The position numbers and the translations under genes were made by a program. From Tritonibacter litoralis (lineage in GTDB: Bacteria > Pseudomonadota > Alphaproteobacteria > Rhodobacterales > Rhodobacteraceae): 64,000 nt of DNA. The notes below the pieces were generated by a model, which worked only from the letters and a program-made list of their open reading frames with translations, was not told where the DNA came from and ran no database searches. Every line of letters begins with the position of its first letter. The stretch's first letter is position 1. The stretch lies in the NCBI RefSeq assembly GCF_009496005.1, contig NZ_WIBF01000001.1:186001-250000 (forward strand), written 5' to 3'. This document shows positions 1,589-17,887 of the stretch, piece by piece.

Positions 1589-1954
1589 TTAGCCGTTGTT
1601 GGCTTCACGGATCTTGTCTGCTGCGTCTTTGTCAAAGGCAACGTCATTGTCAGCCAGCATGGTGTCCAGTTCGCCGGACAGGGTCATCTCGGTGATGATG
1701 TCACAGCCGCCCACGAACTCACCTTTGACGTAAAGCTGCGGGATGGTCGGCCAATCGGAATAATCCTTGATCCCTTGGCGGATTTCTTCATCGGCCAGAA
1801 CGTTTACGTCGGTGTATTCGACGCCGATATAGTTCAGAACACCAGCTACCCGAGAGGAAAACCCGCATTGCGGCATCTCTTTGGTGCCTTTCATGAACAG
1901 CACTACGGTGTTGTCTTTGACGGTATCATCAATACGCGCGTTTACGTCGGTCAT
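1589..1954 (-). CDS. grxD: Monothiol glutaredoxin, Grx4 family
   Basis: A 121-residue protein with the single-cysteine active site CGFS preceded by MKGTKEMPQ, and the downstream [19 protein letters not shown] block that binds glutathione. These are the hallmarks of Grx4/Grx5-type glutaredoxins, which carry a [2Fe-2S] cluster with glutathione and hand it to acceptor proteins, often as a heterodimer with a BolA protein. A BolA-family gene lies 270 bases upstream on the same strand, matching that partnership. The start is set by GGAGA about 6 bases before the ATG. The ATG overlaps the stop of a small upstream ORF (ATGA), so translation may be coupled. The gene ends before a shared terminator. 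Confidence 0.95.
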
Positions 1955-2145
1955 GTTTGTCTCCGTTTCCAGGCGCCGCGGCGCAGTTTTTGTTCAACGC
2001 GCCAAAAGCGTGGTCCGTATTTAAGAAGTTTTCTAAACTCACATATGGGAACAGCAATGATATGCGCAAGGTCCATAATTATCATTGCCCAGTGTAGCAG
2101 TATTTTTGCGATGCCTGCCATGACCAGAACCAAGGCTTCATCCAT
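1951..2145 (-). CDS. Possible small membrane protein between bolA and grxD
   Basis: A 64-residue frame with a hydrophobic N-terminal half (residues about 4-35) and a basic C-terminal tail ([17 protein letters not shown]). Its stop codon overlaps the grxD start as ATGA, and it fills most of the bolA-grxD gap on the same strand. I do not recognise the family. Against it, there is no clear ribosome binding site before its ATG, and the C-terminal part overlaps the grxD leader. It may be a real coupling peptide or simply an open stretch of the grxD leader. Confidence 0.3.
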
Positions 2146-2225
2146 AAGTGATCACCAGATCACAGCCGGATTGGTTAAAGGCATAACTTACCAAAGGGGC
2201 GATCACGAGCCCGCGATATCCAAGA

Positions 2226-2471
2226 TCAATCCGGCGCCTTGGTGGTCAGGGCCAGCGCGTGCAGTTCGCCATCGGAACCGTCCATCTTGCCTTTGAGCGC
2301 AGCATAGACGGCGCGTTGCTGTTGGACCCGGTTCTTGCCGCGAAAGCTTTCGTCAACAACCATGGCGGACATATGCACGCCGTCATTGCCGCCGACCTGG
2401 ATTTCAGCGTCTGGGAAGGTTTCACGCAAAAGCGCTTCGATTTCATGGGCCTGCATGGGCATTTGGATCAA
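2226..2471 (-). CDS. BolA family protein, IbaG/BolA2 type
   Basis: An 81-residue BolA-like protein. The helix-turn-helix-like KH fold is indicated by the N-terminal segment HEIEALLRETFPDAEI, the central VHMSAMVVDESFRGKNRVQQQR with the conserved FRGK..V.QQR stretch, and the C-terminal LHALALTTKAP signature. BolA proteins bind monothiol glutaredoxins and share an Fe-S cluster through a histidine. The nearby grxD gene supports a joint role in Fe-S delivery. There is a choice of three close methionines at the N terminus (residues 1, 4 and 6). The gene follows the Cys-rich gene on the same strand with a 57-base gap. Confidence 0.9.
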   Translation of the reverse strand: MIQMPMQAHEIEALLRETFPDAEIQVGGNDGVHMSAMVVDESFRGKNRVQQQRAVYAALKGKMDGSDGELHALALTTKAPD

Positions 2472-2528
2472 TGTCCTTCTGTCTGTCTGGGTAAAATGTA
2501 GGGCCGCGCCGGTCGCTCTGCAAGCGGA

Positions 2529-3086
2529 TTAGCGCGCGCGCTGCACATAGGGGGCAAGTTGCGGGATAAACGTGGGCACCTGCGCCAGGGCGTCCTGCAC
2601 CTCGGGCTCTTCAAAGTCCCAGATCGAAGTTGCATCCTCTGGGCAAAGCGCATGCATCAAGGTCAGGCAGGTCTGGCGCTCAGCGTCGGGCATGGGGATG
2701 TTCAGCGCTTCTTTCAGGATCAACAGCGCCTCGTGAATGGGGCGCAGAACCCGCAGGGCGTGGGTCATGTGATGGAGCAGGTCGGGATCTTCGCGCCAGC
2801 TTTCACCGTCAAACAGATCCTGCGTGATCCGCTGACCCGCCCCGGCGCAGGAATAGGCGACGCAGCCCGGAAAGCCACGTTTGCTCAGATTCGCATGGAT
2901 CTGACAGCCGCCTGAGGCGTTTAAATTGGAGCAGGGGTGGTCGGTCGCCTTGTTGATTGCAAACTCTTCCCCCTGATCAAAGGGGTAGGCGAGACAACAG
3001 AGATCGGCACAACGGCTGCAGTCGTGGGCCAGCTCCGGCAAGGCAGGCTGACCCAACTGCATCACATCAGGCAACAGCGGCGGCAA
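2529..3086 (-). CDS. Cysteine-rich protein with a YkgJ-like metal-binding cluster
   Basis: A 185-residue protein whose N-terminal 100 residues hold about eight cysteines ([29 protein letters not shown]), followed by [17 protein letters not shown]. The same pattern occurs as an N-terminal module in some pentapeptide-repeat proteins and resembles YkgJ-type zinc/iron clusters; that is recalled family knowledge, not a search. The C-terminal half is helical with no repeats here. The longest start overlaps the purL 3' end by 20 bases, while the methionine at residue 9 (ATG ending at 3062) would avoid the overlap. Function is unknown. Its place between purL and the bolA/grxD Fe-S genes makes a metal-related role possible. 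Confidence 0.7.
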
Positions 3087-5226
3087 AACTGCTGCGGAAT
3101 ATCTCCGCCAGTTCAGCCAACGGCGCTTCTGAGCCGCCGAACTTCACGGTGTCACCGCCAAAGCGGCCCACCGAAATAATTGGAACACCCACTTGACCGG
3201 CAGCCAGCATCAGACCTTCGGCCTGATCAAAGTTACAGGCCACCAGATAGCGCGCCTGATCCTCGCCATACAGGGTCGCCATGTCGCTGGCATCCAGATG
3301 GACACCAACGCCCGCTGCTTCGGCCAATTCAAACGCGGCCAGTGCCAAGCCACCATCGCCCAGGTCGGTGCAGGCTTTGATCAGCGAACGGTTTTCACGG
3401 ATGAACTCACCGTTGCGCTTTTCAGCGTCCAGATCCACGGCAGGCGCGTCGCCCTCTTCGCGGTTGAAGACTTCGGCCAGCAGGGCGGATTGGCCCAGAT
3501 GTCCGGCAGTGTCACCGATCAGAAGGGCCACGTGGCCATCCCGTACTTCACCGATGATCGGCTCTTCGCCTGCGGCCACCAGACCAACAGCGCCGATGGT
3601 TGGGGTTGGCAGGATCGCCTGACCATCCGTTTCATTATAAAGCGACACGTTGCCCGAAACGATTGGCATGTCCAGCGCCGCAACCGCTTCGCCGATGCCT
3701 TTCAGCGCGCCCACGAATTGGCCCATGATTTCGGGCTTTTCCGGGTTGCCAAAGTTCAGGTTGTCTGTGGTTGCCAGCGGTTTCGCGCCAACAGCGGTCA
3801 GGTTGCGATAGGCTTCGGCCACGGCCTGTTTGCCACCCTCAACCGGGTTCGCTTTGACATAGCGCGGGGTCACATCCGAGGTGAACGCCAGTTTCTTGTC
3901 GGTGCCATGAACACGGATCAGACCAGCCGCCGCACCAGGGCGCAGTTGGGTGTCGCCCATGACGGTGGTGTCATATTGTTCATAGACCCATTGTTTGCCC
4001 GCATAGTTCGGCGAAGAGATCAGCGCCTTGAGCCCGTCGATCGGGTCCACTTCGGGCACGTCCCCGACAGGGCCCGCCGCTGGGGTTTCCACCCACGGGC
4101 GATCGTATTCCGGAGCAGACGAGGCCAGTTTTGACAGCGGCAGGTCGGCTTTTACGTCGCCATTGTGCAGGATCAGGAAGCGGTCTTCGGCGATGGTTTC
4201 ACCCACAATGGCGAAATCCAGATCCCATTTCACAAACACAGCCTTTGCTTCGGCTTCCAGTTCCGGTTTCAGAACCATCAGCATGCGTTCCTGAGATTCC
4301 GACAGCATCATCTCATAGGCTGTCATACCCACTTCGCGCTGGGGCACATCTTCGAGGTTCAGTTTGACACCCAGGCCACCTTTGTCGCCCATCTCAACCG
4401 CGGAACAGGTGAGGCCCGCAGCCCCCATGTCCTGGATCGAGATCACAGCGCCGGTCTGCATCAGCTCCAGCGTGGCCTCCATCAGGCGTTTTTCGGTGAA
4501 GGGGTCGCCGACCTGAACAGTGGGGCGCTTTTCCTCGATGGTGTCATCAAATTCCGCCGATGCCATGGTGGCACCGCCCACACCGTCACGACCGGTTTTT
4601 GCGCCCAGATAGACCACCGGCATGCCAACACCCGACGCGGCGGAGTAGAAGATGCCGTCCGTCTTGGCCAGACCCGCCGCAAAGGCGTTGACCAGGCAGT
4701 TGCCATTATAGGCCGGGTGAAAGCGGACTTCGCCGCCGGCGCAAGGCACACCAAAGCAGTTGCCATAACCGCCGATGCCTTCAACCACACCGTTGACCAG
4801 CTGGCGGGTCTTAGGGTGGGACGGCTCGCCAAAGGACAGGGCGTTCATCGACGCAATCGGACGCGCCCCCATAGTGAAGACGTCGCGCAGAATGCCGCCA
4901 ACGCCGGTCGCCGCGCCCTGATAGGGCTCGATATACGACGGGTGGTTGTGGCTTTCCATTTTAAAGACAACCGCATCGCCATCGCCAATATCCACAATGC
5001 CTGCGTTTTCACCCGGACCACAGATCACCTGCGGGCCTTCGGTCGGCAGTGTGCGCAGCCATTTCTTGGACGACTTGTACGAGCAGTGCTCGTTCCACAT
5101 GGCGGAGAAAATGCCAAGCTCAGTGAACGTTGGCTCACGCCCGATGATCTCAAGGATCAGATCGTATTCGTCGGGCTTCAGCCCGTGATTTTCAATCAGT
5201 TCAGGCGTGATCGCTGGTTCCTGCAT
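3067..5226 (-). CDS. purL: Phosphoribosylformylglycinamidine synthase subunit PurL
   Basis: A 719-residue small-type PurL, which converts FGAR, ATP and the ammonia delivered by PurQ into FGAM in purine synthesis. The N-terminal block [20 protein letters not shown] with its active-site histidine, the ATP-binding [20 protein letters not shown] loop, and the second AIRS-like half ([23 protein letters not shown]) are all present. The length fits the PurL subunit that works with separate PurS and PurQ, which are not downstream here. The ATG at 5226 gives the full N terminus. The Cys-rich gene downstream begins inside or next to its 3' end. Confidence 0.97.
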
Positions 5227-5559: not shown

Positions 5560-5676
5560 AAAAAAAAGGCCGAGCACTAAGCTCGGCCGAAGTCCAACAG
5601 GGAGGTATGAAGGGCGGCGTGTGCCAGCGCCTTCATGAGGTTCATTTAGGGGGTCTCCCGCCCGCCTTCAAGGATT
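5560..5676 (-). ncRNA. Candidate AbcR-like trans-acting small RNA
   Basis: Read on the minus strand, this stretch has small-RNA architecture. There is a hairpin with arms ATGAAGG / CCTTCAT (5607-5636), then an unpaired CU-rich stretch ACCTCCCTG (5598-5606) complementary to ribosome binding sites, then a strong terminator GGCCGAGC / GCTCGGCC (5568-5588) with eight U residues. A promoter-like TTGCGC-N17-TTTATC sits just upstream, predicting an RNA of about 115 bases. AbcR RNAs of Alphaproteobacteria have this size, anti-Shine-Dalgarno loops and a functional link to LsrB/VtlR regulators. An LsrB/VtlR-type gene ends 58 bases upstream on the same strand. Two tiny frames of 19 and 22 codons also fit here and cannot be excluded. 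Confidence 0.6.
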
Positions 5677-5682
5677 AACATC

Positions 5683-5711
5683 GATAAAACACGCAGGGCT
5701 GCCATGCGCAA
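5683..5711 (-). promoter_or_regulatory. Putative promoter of the candidate small RNA
   Basis: On the minus strand TTGCGC (-35, 5711-5706) and TTTATC (-10, 5688-5683) are separated by 17 bases. The predicted start is near 5676. Judged by eye only. Confidence 0.4.
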
Positions 5712-5733
5712 ATTGCATAGCTATTAAGCAGGT

Positions 5734-6639
5734 TTAGAGTTTCCCTAATTCTTTCATGTGCTTGCGATGTTCAATAATTTCACTCTGCACAAAATCGCGG
5801 AATGCTGCGACACGGCGCGAGTGACGTAATTCTTCGGGATAGGCCAGATACACGGGCACTTCGTGAGTCTCTTCTTCGGGCAAGATCTCAACCAAAGCTG
5901 GGAAGTCCTCGGTGACATAGTCTGGCAAGATGCCAATGCCGAGGTCATGCACAACCGCCTGCAGCACGCCGAAGTAGTTGTTTACGTTCAAAACAGACTG
6001 CGGGTTATGGGCCATCAGACGTTTCACCATCAAGGCGGCGGCACCAACCTGCGCCGATTGGGCGTTCTGGCAGATCAGGCGATGATCTTTCATATCCTCG
6101 GCACGCAGTGGAGTTCCGTGTTCCTTCAAATATGTCTCTGACGCATAAAGGCGCATCTGCACCGTCATCAGGCGTTTGCGGATCAAATCGGCCTGACTTG
6201 GTTCTTTCATACGGATGGCGACGTCCGCTTCGCGCATCGGTAGGTCCAACACCCGCTCTTCCAGCATCAGGTCAATGTTGAGACTGGGGTAGACTTCATA
6301 CAGCTTGGTCAGCCGTGGGGCGAGCCACAGGGTGCCAAATCCAAACGCGGTGGTCACGCGCAACTGGCCAAACACCTCTTCGTCGCTGTCACGTATACGG
6401 GCCGATGCCGCATCCAGTCGCTGGCTCATGGCTTTGGTGGCGTCAAACAGCAATTCGCCCTGTTCCGTCAGGATCAATCCACGCGCGTGGCGATGAAATA
6501 AAGTGGCATTTAATTTTTCTTCCAGCGCGCGAATCTGGCGACTGACGGCGGATTGCGACAGGTTCAGCTTGTCACCCGCATGCGTCAGACTGCCGGCGTC
6601 CGCCACTGCGTGGAATATCCTGAGTTTGTCCCAATCCAT
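5734..6639 (-). CDS. LysR-family regulator of the LsrB/VtlR type
   Basis: A 301-residue LysR-type transcriptional regulator. The N-terminal winged helix-turn-helix (residues about 1-60) reads MDWDKLRIFHAVADAG, LSQSAVSRQIRALE and LFHRHARGLILTEQG. This matches, from memory, the LsrB/VtlR regulators of Rhizobiales, which control host interaction, stress responses and the AbcR2 small RNA. The rest is the periplasmic-binding-protein-like effector domain (YLAYPEELRHSRRVAAFRDF near the end). It is divergent from the indolepyruvate oxidoreductase gene, with a T-N11-A palindrome between them. The candidate AbcR-like RNA lies immediately downstream. Effector unknown. Confidence 0.85.
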   Translation of the reverse strand: MDWDKLRIFHAVADAGSLTHAGDKLNLSQSAVSRQIRALEEKLNATLFHRHARGLILTEQGELLFDATKAMSQRLDAASARIRDSDEEVFGQLRVTTAFGFGTLWLAPRLTKLYEVYPSLNIDLMLEERVLDLPMREADVAIRMKEPSQADLIRKRLMTVQMRLYASETYLKEHGTPLRAEDMKDHRLICQNAQSAQVGAAALMVKRLMAHNPQSVLNVNNYFGVLQAVVHDLGIGILPDYVTEDFPALVEILPEEETHEVPVYLAYPEELRHSRRVAAFRDFVQSEIIEHRKHMKELGKL

Positions 6640-6764: not shown

Positions 6765-6809
6765 ACCTTGAGTAAATCAAAGGCAAGCTGATCCAGTGAG
6801 GAGGACTTG

Positions 6810-9800
6810 ATGAGCAAGCAAGGGATTTCACTCAACGACAAATATGATTTGTCGCAGTCGCCCATATTGTTAAACGGAACCCAGGCGCTGGTGCGTCTGA
6901 TGCTGATGCAAAAGGCGCGCGATCAGGAGGCCGGGTTGAATACTGCGGGTCTGGTCACCGGCTACCGGGGGTCTCCTCTGGGCGCGGTCGACATCCAGAT
7001 GGCCCGCGCAGAACGTCAGCTCAAGGCTGCGGATGTCCAGTTCCAATACGGATTGAACGAGGATCTGGCGGTCACCGCACTGTGGGGCGCACAACAGGCC
7101 GAGGTCCGGGGAGAGGGCAAATACGACGGTGTCTTTGGCCTGTGGTACGGCAAAGGGCCGGGGGTTGACCGTTCTGGCGATGCGTTCCGCCATGCCAATA
7201 TGGCCGGCAGTTCCAAATACGGCGGTGTTTTGGTTGCGATGGGCGATGACCACACCGGCGAAAGCTCGACCGTGCTGCACCAATCCGAATGGTCGCTGTT
7301 GGATTGCTATCTGCCCATCCTCAGCCCTGCGGGCGTGCAAGAGATCCTGGATTTTGGCATCTACGGCTATGCGCTGTCGCGATTCTCGGGCCTGTGGGTT
7401 GGTCTGAAGACGATGAAAGACACGATCGAGGTCACCTCGGTTGTGGATGGCGATCCGAATCGACAGCAACTGGTCCTGCCGGAATTTGACATGCCCGAAG
7501 ATGGGTTGAACATCCGTCTGGACGACGACCGGTTCCGCCAGGAAGACCGGATCATCGATTACAAGCGTTTTGCTGCTGAGGCGTTCTCACATGCCAACAA
7601 GATGGACAAACGGGTCTGGGGCAAGCCCGGTGCCAAGATTGGCCTGGTGGCTGCTGGGAAGAACTGGTTGGACATGACCCATGCGCTGAAGCTTTTGAAC
7701 ATCGACGCCAATATGGCCGAACGTTTGGGCATCACCACATATAAGGTCGGCCAGACCTTCCCAATGGATATGAAAGGGTTTCATGATTGGGCCGAGGGGC
7801 TGGATCTGATCATTGTGGTTGAGGAAAAGCGCAAGCTGATCGAGATCCAGATCAAAGAGGCCATCTTTGACGACCGGCGCGGACGGCGGGTCTATGGCTG
7901 GTACAAGGGCGGGGCAGGTGCCATGCACCGCGAGGAGCTGTTCCCGACCAAATACGCGCTGGATCCGATTATGATCGCCCAGAAGCTTGGCGATATCCTG
8001 ATTGAAGAGGGCCGCGAGAACGAGGCGATTTCAGCCGGTCTGCAAGCCCTGGCCGAAGCGCAGCGCGCCGATAATGCCGAGGAAATCGTAACCCGTCTGC
8101 CCTATTTCTGCTCGGGCTGTCCGCATAACACATCCACCCGTTTGCCCGAAGGCAGCCGCGCCTATGCCGGGATCGGCTGTCACTTTATGGTGCAATGGAT
8201 GGACCGTGAAACGATGGGCGTGACCCATATGGGCGGTGAAGGCGTCAATTGGGTGGGCGAGGCTCCGTTTTCCAACCGTAAACATGTGTTCCAGAACCTT
8301 GGTGATGGCACCTACAACCACTCAGGCGTCTTGGCAATTCGCGCGGCTTTGGCCCAAGGAACCAATATCACCTACAAGATCCTCTATAATGACGCGGTGG
8401 CCATGACCGGCGGGCAAGAGGCCGAAGGCGGCCTGACGGCCCACCGCATTGCCGATGAGCTGCGCGCGATGGGGGTCCAGACGCTGGTGGTGGTCTATGA
8501 CGACAAGGAAGACGTGGACCAAAGCCTGTTTCCGGCCGGGTTGAAGTTCCATGAACGGTCCGAGCTGATGCAGGTTCAGCGCGAACTGTCCGAGGTCGAG
8601 GGCGTGTCGGTCCTTTTGTACATCCAGACCTGTGCTGCCGAAAAACGCAGGCGCCGTAAAAAAGGCCTGTTCCCGGATCCAGATCAGCGGATATTCATCA
8701 ACACGGACGTCTGTGAAGGCTGCGGCGACTGCGGGGTTCAGTCCAACTGTGTGTCGATTGTGCCCGTGGAAACCGAACTCGGTCGAAAGCGTGCGATTGA
8801 CCAATCAACCTGCAACAAGGATTTTTCCTGCGTAAACGGCTTCTGCCCATCCTTTGTCTCAGTCAAAGGGGCCAAGATCCGCAAAACCGCCTCAACCGAG
8901 CTGGACTTGCCGGATCTACCAATGCCTGAGCTTCCGGCCATTAACGGCACTCATAATGTGGTGATCACCGGCGTGGGCGGCACAGGTGTTGTGACCGTTG
9001 GCGCAATCCTGGCACAGGCCGCACAGATCGATGGCAAAGCCGCCGGCATGATGGAGATGGCAGGCCTTGCCCAAAAGGGAGGCGCGGTTCATATCCATTG
9101 CCGTCTTGCCAATACGCCAGATGACATCAGCGCCATTCGGGTCGCCACCGGAGAGGCGGACGCGTTGATTGGTGGTGATCTGGTGGTCAGCGCCGGATCC
9201 AAAACCCTGGGTCTGACTGCGCAGGGGCGCACCGGCGCGGTGGTCAACAGTCATGAGATCATCACCGGTGCCTTCACCCGTGATACCGCGTTCCAAATTC
9301 CGGGTGACCGGTTGCAACTGGCGCTGACTGCACGGCTGCAAGAGCGCGCCGATCTGTTTGACGCCTCCGAACTGGCGCGGATCACCATGGGGGATTCCAT
9401 CTTTTCCAACATGATGATCTTTGGCGCAGCCTGGCAACGTGGGTTGCTGCCTGTCGGCCATGATGCGTTAATGCATGCCATCACGTTGAATGGGACAGCC
9501 GTGGACCGCAATAAACGCGCCTTTGACATTGGTCGCTGGGCGGTGTTGCACCCGCAGGAAACAGCGGCATTGATTGCGGATCATCGTCCCGGTGCGGCGG
9601 ATGTCCCCCAAACATTGCAAGGCAAGATCGATTTCCGCGCCGATCATTTGCGCAAATACCAGGGCGCGCGGCTGGCCAAGCGCTACCTTGCTTTGGTCGA
9701 CAGCGTTGAAGATGCGCGGCTCAAGGAGGCGGTGGCCAAAGGATACCACAAGCTGCTGGCCTATAAGGACGAGTATGAGGTGGCCCGCCTGATGCTGGAC

Positions 9801-10256
9801 ACGCGCCAAAAGGCCGAGGCCGAATTTGATGGCGATCTAGAACTGACCTATCATCTGGCGCCGCCCATTCTGGGGGGCAAGGATTCCAATGGACGTCCCC
9901 AAAAACGCCGCTTTGGCCCCTGGATCGAAAAGCTGTTGCCGCTGCTTGCGCGGATGAAAACACTGCGCGGGACGCCGCTGGATCTGTTTGGCTATACGGC
10001 TGAGCGCAAAATGGAACGCGCGCTGATCCGGCAATATCAAAGTGACATGGCCAAATGGCTGCCTGAGGCGGATCCGGCGCGGATGGAGGCCTTGGTGGCT
10101 TTGGCTGAACTGCCTCTGGATATTCGTGGATTTGGACCGGTGAAGGCGAAGAACGAAGCCCAGGCCGCAAAACGGCGCGAAGCTCTGTTGGCCACCTTGC
10201 GCGATGGCGGCACGGACAGCGGTTCAACACCCATGCCCGCACAGGCGGCAGAATAG
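6810..10256 (+). CDS. Indolepyruvate ferredoxin oxidoreductase, fused subunits
   Basis: A 1148-residue thiamine-pyrophosphate enzyme that oxidatively decarboxylates arylpyruvates (from Trp, Phe, Tyr) to aryl-acetyl-CoA, passing electrons to ferredoxin. The N-terminal TPP region includes LVTGYRGSPLGAVD; the second TPP part has the CSGCPHNTS cysteines and GIGCHFMVQWMDR. A ferredoxin-like cysteine cluster follows (CEGCGDCGVQSNC, then further cysteines around CNKDFSC). The IorB-like domain begins at GVGGTGVVTVGAI, and a long C-terminal extension completes the protein. This alpha-beta fusion is common in Proteobacteria. The start ATG at 6810 is chosen because GAGGAGG lies 5-6 bases upstream; a TTG one codon earlier is less likely. 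A PaaG-like gene 8 kb away may act on related products. Confidence 0.93.
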   Translation: MSKQGISLNDKYDLSQSPILLNGTQALVRLMLMQKARDQEAGLNTAGLVTGYRGSPLGAVDIQMARAERQLKAADVQFQYGLNEDLAVTALWGAQQAEVRGEGKYDGVFGLWYGKGPGVDRSGDAFRHANMAGSSKYGGVLVAMGDDHTGESSTVLHQSEWSLLDCYLPILSPAGVQEILDFGIYGYALSRFSGLWVGLKTMKDTIEVTSVVDGDPNRQQLVLPEFDMPEDGLNIRLDDDRFRQEDRIIDYKRFAAEAFSHANKMDKRVWGKPGAKIGLVAAGKNWLDMTHALKLLNIDANMAERLGITTYKVGQTFPMDMKGFHDWAEGLDLIIVVEEKRKLIEIQIKEAIFDDRRGRRVYGWYKGGAGAMHREELFPTKYALDPIMIAQKLGDILIEEGRENEAISAGLQALAEAQRADNAEEIVTRLPYFCSGCPHNTSTRLPEGSRAYAGIGCHFMVQWMDRETMGVTHMGGEGVNWVGEAPFSNRKHVFQNLGDGTYNHSGVLAIRAALAQGTNITYKILYNDAVAMTGGQEAEGGLTAHRIADELRAMGVQTLVVVYDDKEDVDQSLFPAGLKFHERSELMQVQRELSEVEGVSVLLYIQTCAAEKRRRRKKGLFPDPDQRIFINTDVCEGCGDCGVQSNCVSIVPVETELGRKRAIDQSTCNKDFSCVNGFCPSFVSVKGAKIRKTASTELDLPDLPMPELPAINGTHNVVITGVGGTGVVTVGAILAQAAQIDGKAAGMMEMAGLAQKGGAVHIHCRLANTPDDISAIRVATGEADALIGGDLVVSAGSKTLGLTAQGRTGAVVNSHEIITGAFTRDTAFQIPGDRLQLALTARLQERADLFDASELARITMGDSIFSNMMIFGAAWQRGLLPVGHDALMHAITLNGTAVDRNKRAFDIGRWAVLHPQETAALIADHRPGAADVPQTLQGKIDFRADHLRKYQGARLAKRYLALVDSVEDARLKEAVAKGYHKLLAYKDEYEVARLMLDTRQKAEAEFDGDLELTYHLAPPILGGKDSNGRPQKRRFGPWIEKLLPLLARMKTLRGTPLDLFGYTAERKMERALIRQYQSDMAKWLPEADPARMEALVALAELPLDIRGFGPVKAKNEAQAAKRREALLATLRDGGTDSGSTPMPAQAAE

Positions 10257-17701: not shown

Positions 17702-17887
17702 TTGCGAAACCGCGCCCCTTTTGTTAAAAGGGCCGTGGTCCGCAGTTCACCAAGGTTCCGCCCCGCGCTAAACCTGCGATTTTTCACGTATACCTGATCT
17801 CCAATTGGACCGTTCAGGCGATACCCCGGGACATGGGCGGACATCCTGCTTGCCAACTGCAAGTGTGGTATCGCAAGGAGCGATAAA

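Follow-up and report, generated by a model that had tools for sequence, protein, structure and literature searches.

A probable SorY-type small RNA downstream of an LsrB/VtlR-type regulator in Tritonibacter litoralis, and a conserved palindrome as its proposed LsrB site

SorY, a small stress RNA of Rhodobacter sphaeroides, has its own promoter (PMC6238624) and is described as acting on the mRNA of takP, a malate transporter. It is reported to limit malate import, to depend upon RpoHI/RpoHII and to be bound by Hfq (PMC5036791, PMC8307010); the sections of these two papers drawn on here name RpoHI/RpoHII as its control, and no LysR regulator. A second RNA of the species, SorX, is reported to derive from an OmpR-type gene, RNase E cutting it out of the 3' UTR (PMC6238624); that gene is RSP_0847. 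The published RNase E site of SorX is at 2,598,224 and the published start of SorY at 1,632,642.

Another group is formed by the AbcR RNAs. The alpha-r15 family is reported from most Rhizobiaceae and Brucellaceae, the AbcR1 region is described as syntenic across alphaproteobacteria, and in Sinorhizobium meliloti the inputs are split, with LsrB acting on AbcR1 and RpoH1 on AbcR2 (PMC8844928). A box for LsrB/VtlR, GCAT-N3-TG-N3-T, has been published at -61 to -49 of S. meliloti abcR1 (PMC7486931, PMC8844928). The LsrB structure of Agrobacterium tumefaciens has been deposited as 9HH1, in a study that discusses four of its cysteines (C144, C236, C244 and C273) and, in 2025, stated that only Rhizobiales have LsrB (PMC11975290, section 31). 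A TrxB-type gene upstream of lsrB has been described for Agrobacterium. SorY and AbcR appear in separate literatures: within the open-access papers, which were the scope of the search, SorY was named together with LsrB, VtlR or AbcR1 only in a Salmonella paper, and no paper joined SorX with AbcR or LsrB.

This study focused on one intergenic spacer of Tritonibacter litoralis, within a stretch of 64,000 nucleotides (the window). The features found there and in its surroundings are given in Table 1.

Table 1. Features of the lsrB-purL spacer and other elements of the window
Feature	Position	Strand	Basis
Intergenic spacer from the LysR stop codon to purL; site of the small RNA	between 5734-6639 (LysR gene) and 3067-5226 (purL)	-	
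lsrB/vtlR ortholog, LysR-type regulator, 301 aa, one cysteine	5734..6639	-	9HH1 match, back search, tree, Pfam
Palindrome GCTATGCAATTTGCGCATGGC (ATGC-N7-GCAT), proposed LsrB site	5701..5721	-	pattern counts in spacers
Box GCATGGCAGCCCT, begun by the right half of the palindrome	5707-5695	-	one letter off the published GCAT-N3-TG-N3-T
Predicted -35 element CTTGAA	5667..5672	-	profile of relatives; R. sphaeroides SorY promoter
Predicted -10 element CCTAAAT, 16 nt past the -35	5644..5650	-	profile of 47 relatives; R. sphaeroides CTTGAA-N16-CCTAAAT
Predicted SorY-type sRNA, about 78 nt	5560..5637	-	Rfam scores; start from homology to the SorY start reported in R. sphaeroides
5' hairpin with varying sequence and conserved structure	5607..5636	-	covariation and z-scores
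Mostly unpaired ACCTCCCTGTTGGACTT / ACCUCCCUGUUGGACUU, proposed mRNA-pairing stretch	5590..5606	-	conservation, unpaired probability
Intrinsic terminator with stem GGCCGAGC/GCTCGGCC and a run of eight T	5560..5588	-	sequence and fold
PurL, BolA-like protein and glutaredoxin genes, consecutive, downstream of the sRNA; a 185-aa frame sits within the row	1589-5226	-	
Indolepyruvate ferredoxin oxidoreductase family protein gene, divergent from lsrB	6807-10256	+	
COG3860 RNA (RF02940)	17736-17779	+	Rfam, 45 bits (cut-off 42.5)

The neighbouring regulator

The initial annotation described the gene upstream of the RNA as LsrB/VtlR-type, and this is upheld by searches in both directions and by a tree. 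Among solved structures the protein matches 9HH1 best, at 245.6 bits, the next structure scoring 105.1. When the 9HH1 stretch is searched back against the T. litoralis genome, the window gene comes first (245 bits, next 123), and in the genome G051, taken to be R. sphaeroides, it is the gene before SorY that comes first (250 bits, next 126). Pfam finds the HTH_1 and LysR_substrate domains, and in a tree with 11 LysR paralogs from the same genome, 51 candidates and 9HH1 form a group free of paralogs (support 0.86). The two-way best match with Agrobacterium LsrB and the tree thus identify the window gene as an LsrB/VtlR ortholog.

The gene is widespread. It was matched at E 1e-60 or better in 192 of 198 family genomes, a set taken to be Rhodobacteraceae, and the window protein found matches at E 1e-50 or better in 225 of 385 class genomes, while Agrobacterium LsrB did so at 1e-60 or better in 220. 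Among the matches listed, no genome of the class sample comes closer than 55% to Agrobacterium LsrB. The orthology and these class-wide matches speak against LsrB being unique to Rhizobiales. Cysteines C144 and C273 are absent from all 18 Rhodobacteraceae proteins and all 33 other class proteins compared; among the latter, C236 occurs in two and C244 in one. All 25 class loci whose flank extends to 900 nt or more carry, upstream of lsrB and on its strand, a TrxB-like frame with the motif CxxCDG, as do 26 of another 30 class loci that overlap in part; none of 34 Rhodobacteraceae loci has one.

The small RNA and its closest relatives

Three elements noted from the letters of the minus strand, a hairpin, a mostly unpaired stretch and a terminator with eight T, are borne out by the sequence, the predicted fold and comparison with shuffled sequences. 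A stretch of 126 nt folds better than its shuffles (z -2.95; 4 of 200 shuffles were equally good), and across 49 distinct RNAs from relatives the 38 nt preceding the core have a mean folding z of -3.2 (47 of 49 below -1.5 and all 49 below 0), as against -0.47 for a control stretch in the same relatives. RNAalifold on a MAFFT alignment returned only six pairs, two in the core and four in the terminator, because the hairpins differ in length; the 5' stem was therefore assessed by the single-sequence z-scores above and by a covariation count that used the fold of a single member of the set. Compensatory changes had been suggested as a check on this stem, and pair-keeping double changes were found in 10 of its 12 pairs among the 49 relatives, with 83.9% of cells paired compared to 36.1 to 47.8% when the structure is slid along the alignment. 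The covariation score, the paired cells and the double-change cells each lie above every one of 500 shuffles. Two further measures, how many pairs carry double changes and how many pair types occur, are less clear, being reached by 50 and 46 of these shuffles, respectively. The terminator stem is paired in 95.3% of cells. In the core, ACC/TTCCCTGTTGGACT, 13 of the 16 letters of ACCTCCCTGTTGGACT are invariant or nearly so in the alignment of the 49 relatives, and the mean unpaired probability of the stretch is about 0.7. Both the stem and the CU-rich stretch, whose lack of conservation in relatives had been named as the counter-evidence, are therefore conserved.

By the patterns used, the core lies downstream of the LysR gene in 50 of 54 Rhodobacteraceae loci and was not found at four (L032, L038, L248 and L254), so that the reported position of a small RNA with an anti-ribosome-binding-site stretch, directly downstream of an LsrB/VtlR-type regulator, holds as a conserved linkage. 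The 54 loci come from 53 genomes and comprise the T. litoralis locus, the 29 next best, 20 chosen by hand, R. sphaeroides and three from the class search. The Rfam SorX model finds a match at E 0.001 or better in 188 of the 198 family genomes and exceeds its cut-off in 157, counts that pool all loci of a genome.

The promoter differs from that first proposed. A profile built from 47 relatives shows CTTGA and CCTA..T as conserved, and 47 of 49 distinct relatives have CTTG at a distance of 55-80 nt before the core. The window promoter, CTTGAA-N16-CCTAAAT, appears to be of an RpoH-like type, the described consensus for S. meliloti RpoH1 being CTTGAA-N16-CCTATAT. The initial annotation had instead proposed TTGCGC-N17-TTTATC, which is probably wrong and was rejected: its TTGCGC (5711-5706) falls within the palindrome ATGCAATTTGCGCAT, and the conserved elements lie elsewhere. 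From the conserved promoter the RNA is predicted to run from 5637 to 5560, about 78 nt and not 115. A dual function through two small frames of 19 and 22 codons was likewise discarded. The 22-codon frame begins outside the predicted RNA, on its upstream side at about 5645, and the 19-codon frame at the second base of the RNA; any frame of at least 12 codons starting before the core is found in only 10 of 50 relatives, ATGAAG at that place in only five, and R. sphaeroides SorY has no such frame before the core.

The Rfam cut-offs alone would name this RNA SorX, since the SorX model (RF02784) scores 54.6 bits, over its cut-off of 46.6, and the SorY model (RF02651) scores 52.9 bits (E 2.2e-9), under its cut-off of 111. 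The latter cut-off fits R. sphaeroides itself, where the SorY model passes it with 115 bits (G051). In that genome the SorX match (C4:2598225-2598299) adjoins the published RNase E site, so G051 appears to carry the coordinates of strain 2.4.1, the strain identity being read from this agreement. The LsrB ortholog of G051 occupies 1631580-1632473, and the published start of SorY lies 169 nt beyond its end, in the order CTTGAA-N16-CCTAAAT, six letters, start, hairpin, core, terminator. The promoter and spacing of the window RNA are identical, which places its start near 5637 and gives the length predicted above. It shares with SorY the LysR gene upstream, this promoter, a hairpin, the core and a terminator, and differs in the sequence of the hairpin and in scoring below the SorY cut-off. 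Its place downstream of an LsrB ortholog and its own RpoH-type promoter mark it, by position and despite the cut-offs, as the likely counterpart (ortholog) of SorY.

Three other identities were weighed against this one. That the RNA is merely the terminator end of the lysR mRNA, with no function of its own, would suit its location about 100 nt past the lysR stop, but is hardly credible given the conserved promoter, the covarying hairpin and the nearly invariant unpaired core, and given that its R. sphaeroides counterpart is reported as a mapped sRNA with its own start; the spacer RNA looks real, a conserved small regulatory RNA. It is also very unlikely to be SorX, an RNase E-cut 3'-UTR RNA acting on a polyamine transporter, although the two models score in favour of this and the CTCCCTGTTGGA core and the terminator are common to both RNAs. 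SorX sits behind an OmpR-type gene, from whose 3' UTR it is cut, whereas the window RNA has lsrB as its neighbour, is preceded by a conserved promoter of its own and shares synteny with SorY. The OmpR-type ortholog of T. litoralis (86% identical) is on another contig (C23, 91994-92674), where a terminator hairpin follows it but the next 500 nt lack the CCTCCCTG core, so that SorX is apparently absent from this locus. A SorX identity was rejected on these grounds of position.

An AbcR (alpha-r15) RNA, as earlier proposed, is highly improbable as well. The sense of a regulatory module carries over: like abcR1 of Agrobacterium and Sinorhizobium, the RNA lies behind lsrB/vtlR, has a proposed LsrB-type site upstream (the palindrome is present, the exact published box being one letter off) and possesses an anti-Shine-Dalgarno (anti-SD) stretch, by which AbcR1 of Rhizobiaceae and Brucellaceae (RF02345) is reported to act on transporter mRNAs. 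The name does not. The suggested covariance search with the ar15 model (RF02345) gave no match in the window up to E 10, and the best match in the genome (18.8 bits) lies elsewhere, unlinked; none of the 385 class genomes held a match over the cut-off, in a sample with no positive to show that the search works here. Furthermore, the window RNA has two hairpins with the anti-SD between them, whereas AbcR1 is described with three, an anti-SD in the 5' loop and a second anti-SD. The AbcR identity was rejected for the missing match and the other architecture, leaving the SorY ortholog as the preferred assignment.

The MmgR/suhB model (RF00519) scores 25.9 bits, under its cut-off of 41. The alphaR8/MmgR/SisA-D RNAs of this family also hold a single-stranded CCUCCCU core between a hairpin and the terminator, but the window RNA lacks their 10-mer UUUCCUCCCU and has CAUACCUCCCU instead. 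A second SorX-model match in the T. litoralis genome (L016; C1:304764-304820, minus strand; 43.4 bits, under the cut-off) reads TTTCCTCCCTGTCAGACT; it holds the alphaR8/MmgR 10-mer and may belong to that family.

The palindrome and the lsrB-linked RNAs of the class

The palindrome between lsrB and the RNA is new here. In a profile of 47 Rhodobacteraceae loci anchored on the -35 element, ATGC-N7-GCAT begins 47 or 46 nt before the -35 in 37 loci, and a GCAT-N3-NG-N3-T box begins 36 or 35 nt before it in 39; in the window this box has A where the published one has T. Across Alphaproteobacteria, 99 of the loci compared have the core C[CT]TCCCTG at a distance of up to 700 nt. In 75 of them the lsrB-sRNA spacer contains the palindrome, which appears in only three of the 99 stretches upstream of lsrB (up to 300 nt each) and eight times in the 285,358 other bases of these loci; the 30 SorX loci, 91,108 bases in all, contain it four times. 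With a gap of N5-9 allowed, 34 of the 49 spacers from other families of the class have a palindrome (mean 0.85 and at most 4 in 300 shuffles). The published box in its exact form occurs in only nine of these 49 loci (shuffle mean 0.70, maximum 4), the shuffles preserving single-letter content only. When positions were compared with those of lsrB, the stringent form GYYATGC-N7-GCATRNC lay in the lsrB-sRNA spacer of 11 of 14 genomes searched (not of G005, G034 and G263). Further sites numbered 0 to 4 in each of the other genomes, and the T. litoralis genome has a single one, inside a long coding frame.

LsrB may switch on the sRNA through this palindrome, both its binding and the direction of control being presumed from comparison of the letters. 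The RNA could be SorY without any control by LsrB, with the palindrome serving another regulator or purpose and RpoHI/RpoHII alone setting its level, as would fit the control reported for SorY (PMC5036791, PMC8307010) and a core promoter that suits RpoH. This is unlikely, as the distance from palindrome to -35 is kept, the palindrome is LysR-like (T-N11-A), its right half opens the published LsrB box, and it is rare elsewhere in the same loci.

Similar RNAs accompany lsrB in other families of the class. Among 65 such loci (the 25 best class matches and 40 picked by hand), CCTCCCTG occurs within 700 nt downstream of lsrB in 49, the other 16 being without the core by the patterns used. Within 1.2 kb, CCTCCCTGTT was found in 94 of 119 loci, a count that includes L254 at 1186 nt, which is perhaps unrelated. 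In many copies from outside the Rhodobacteraceae the core is preceded by ACGTCTCCCAGACGT-GAAG. At core loci of these families the SorX model reached E below 1e-4 in 9 of 20, with none over the cut-off, and it found 2 of 20 other loci that had been chosen because the exact core was missed there. For the 30 class loci with the closest matches to Agrobacterium LsrB, which overlap the 65 in part, the core was found within 700 nt in 15 and the palindrome in eight of these 15. At three loci of one class family (L189, L199 and L200), at least two CTCCC-type RNA-like units stand in tandem downstream of lsrB, an arrangement that recalls AbcR1/AbcR2.

It could be speculated that lsrB, the LsrB palindrome and a CUCCCUG sRNA form one old alphaproteobacterial module, in which SorY of Rhodobacterales and AbcR1 of Rhizobiales occupy one slot and the lsrB-linked RNAs of other families are further members, and that LsrB activates SorY directly; the case for and against this wider reading is evenly balanced.

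Proposed regulation and its meaning

For T. litoralis itself, it is probable that the RNA is a SorY ortholog, transcribed from an RpoH-type promoter, activated by LsrB via the palindrome and, aided by Hfq, masking the ribosome-binding sites of transporter mRNAs. The sequence, structure, covariation and synteny, and the conservation of promoter and palindrome, are directly observed. Transcription would begin at the promoter just downstream of lsrB, with LsrB bound to ATGC-N7-GCAT upstream of it as activator, and, together with Hfq, the exposed ACCUCCCUGUUGG stretch would pair with the ribosome-binding sites and so lower translation. The sRNA would then work like AbcR1, occupying the same slot. 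Expression in T. litoralis is presumed, as are the targets. The pattern CAACAGGGAG, the complement of a portion of the core, is present at five places in the genome, compared to two for a reversed control pattern, and one of the five is the antisense of the sRNA itself. Another lies 8 nt before the ATG of a gene for an NMT1/THI5-like (PF09084) periplasmic binding protein (L273, C3:165540), a candidate target only; the duplex energy is uninformative here, as 11 of 300 shuffles are as low.

The sRNA is the counterpart of a known RNA, and the regulatory link is the new, testable part. If a regulator and site are indeed shared, SorY would gain a new input, the restriction of LsrB to Rhizobiales (PMC11975290) would need correction, and the redox cysteines of the Agrobacterium protein would be a local acquisition and not the ancestral signal. 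The window RNA seems to carry both the LsrB and the RpoH input, in contrast to S. meliloti. If the one-module reading is true, SorY would be activated directly by LsrB, a regulator so far regarded as peculiar to Rhizobiales, and would combine the LsrB input of AbcR1 with the RpoH input of AbcR2; the circuits for nutrient uptake in rhizobia and for photo-oxidative stress in Rhodobacter would then be versions of a single one.
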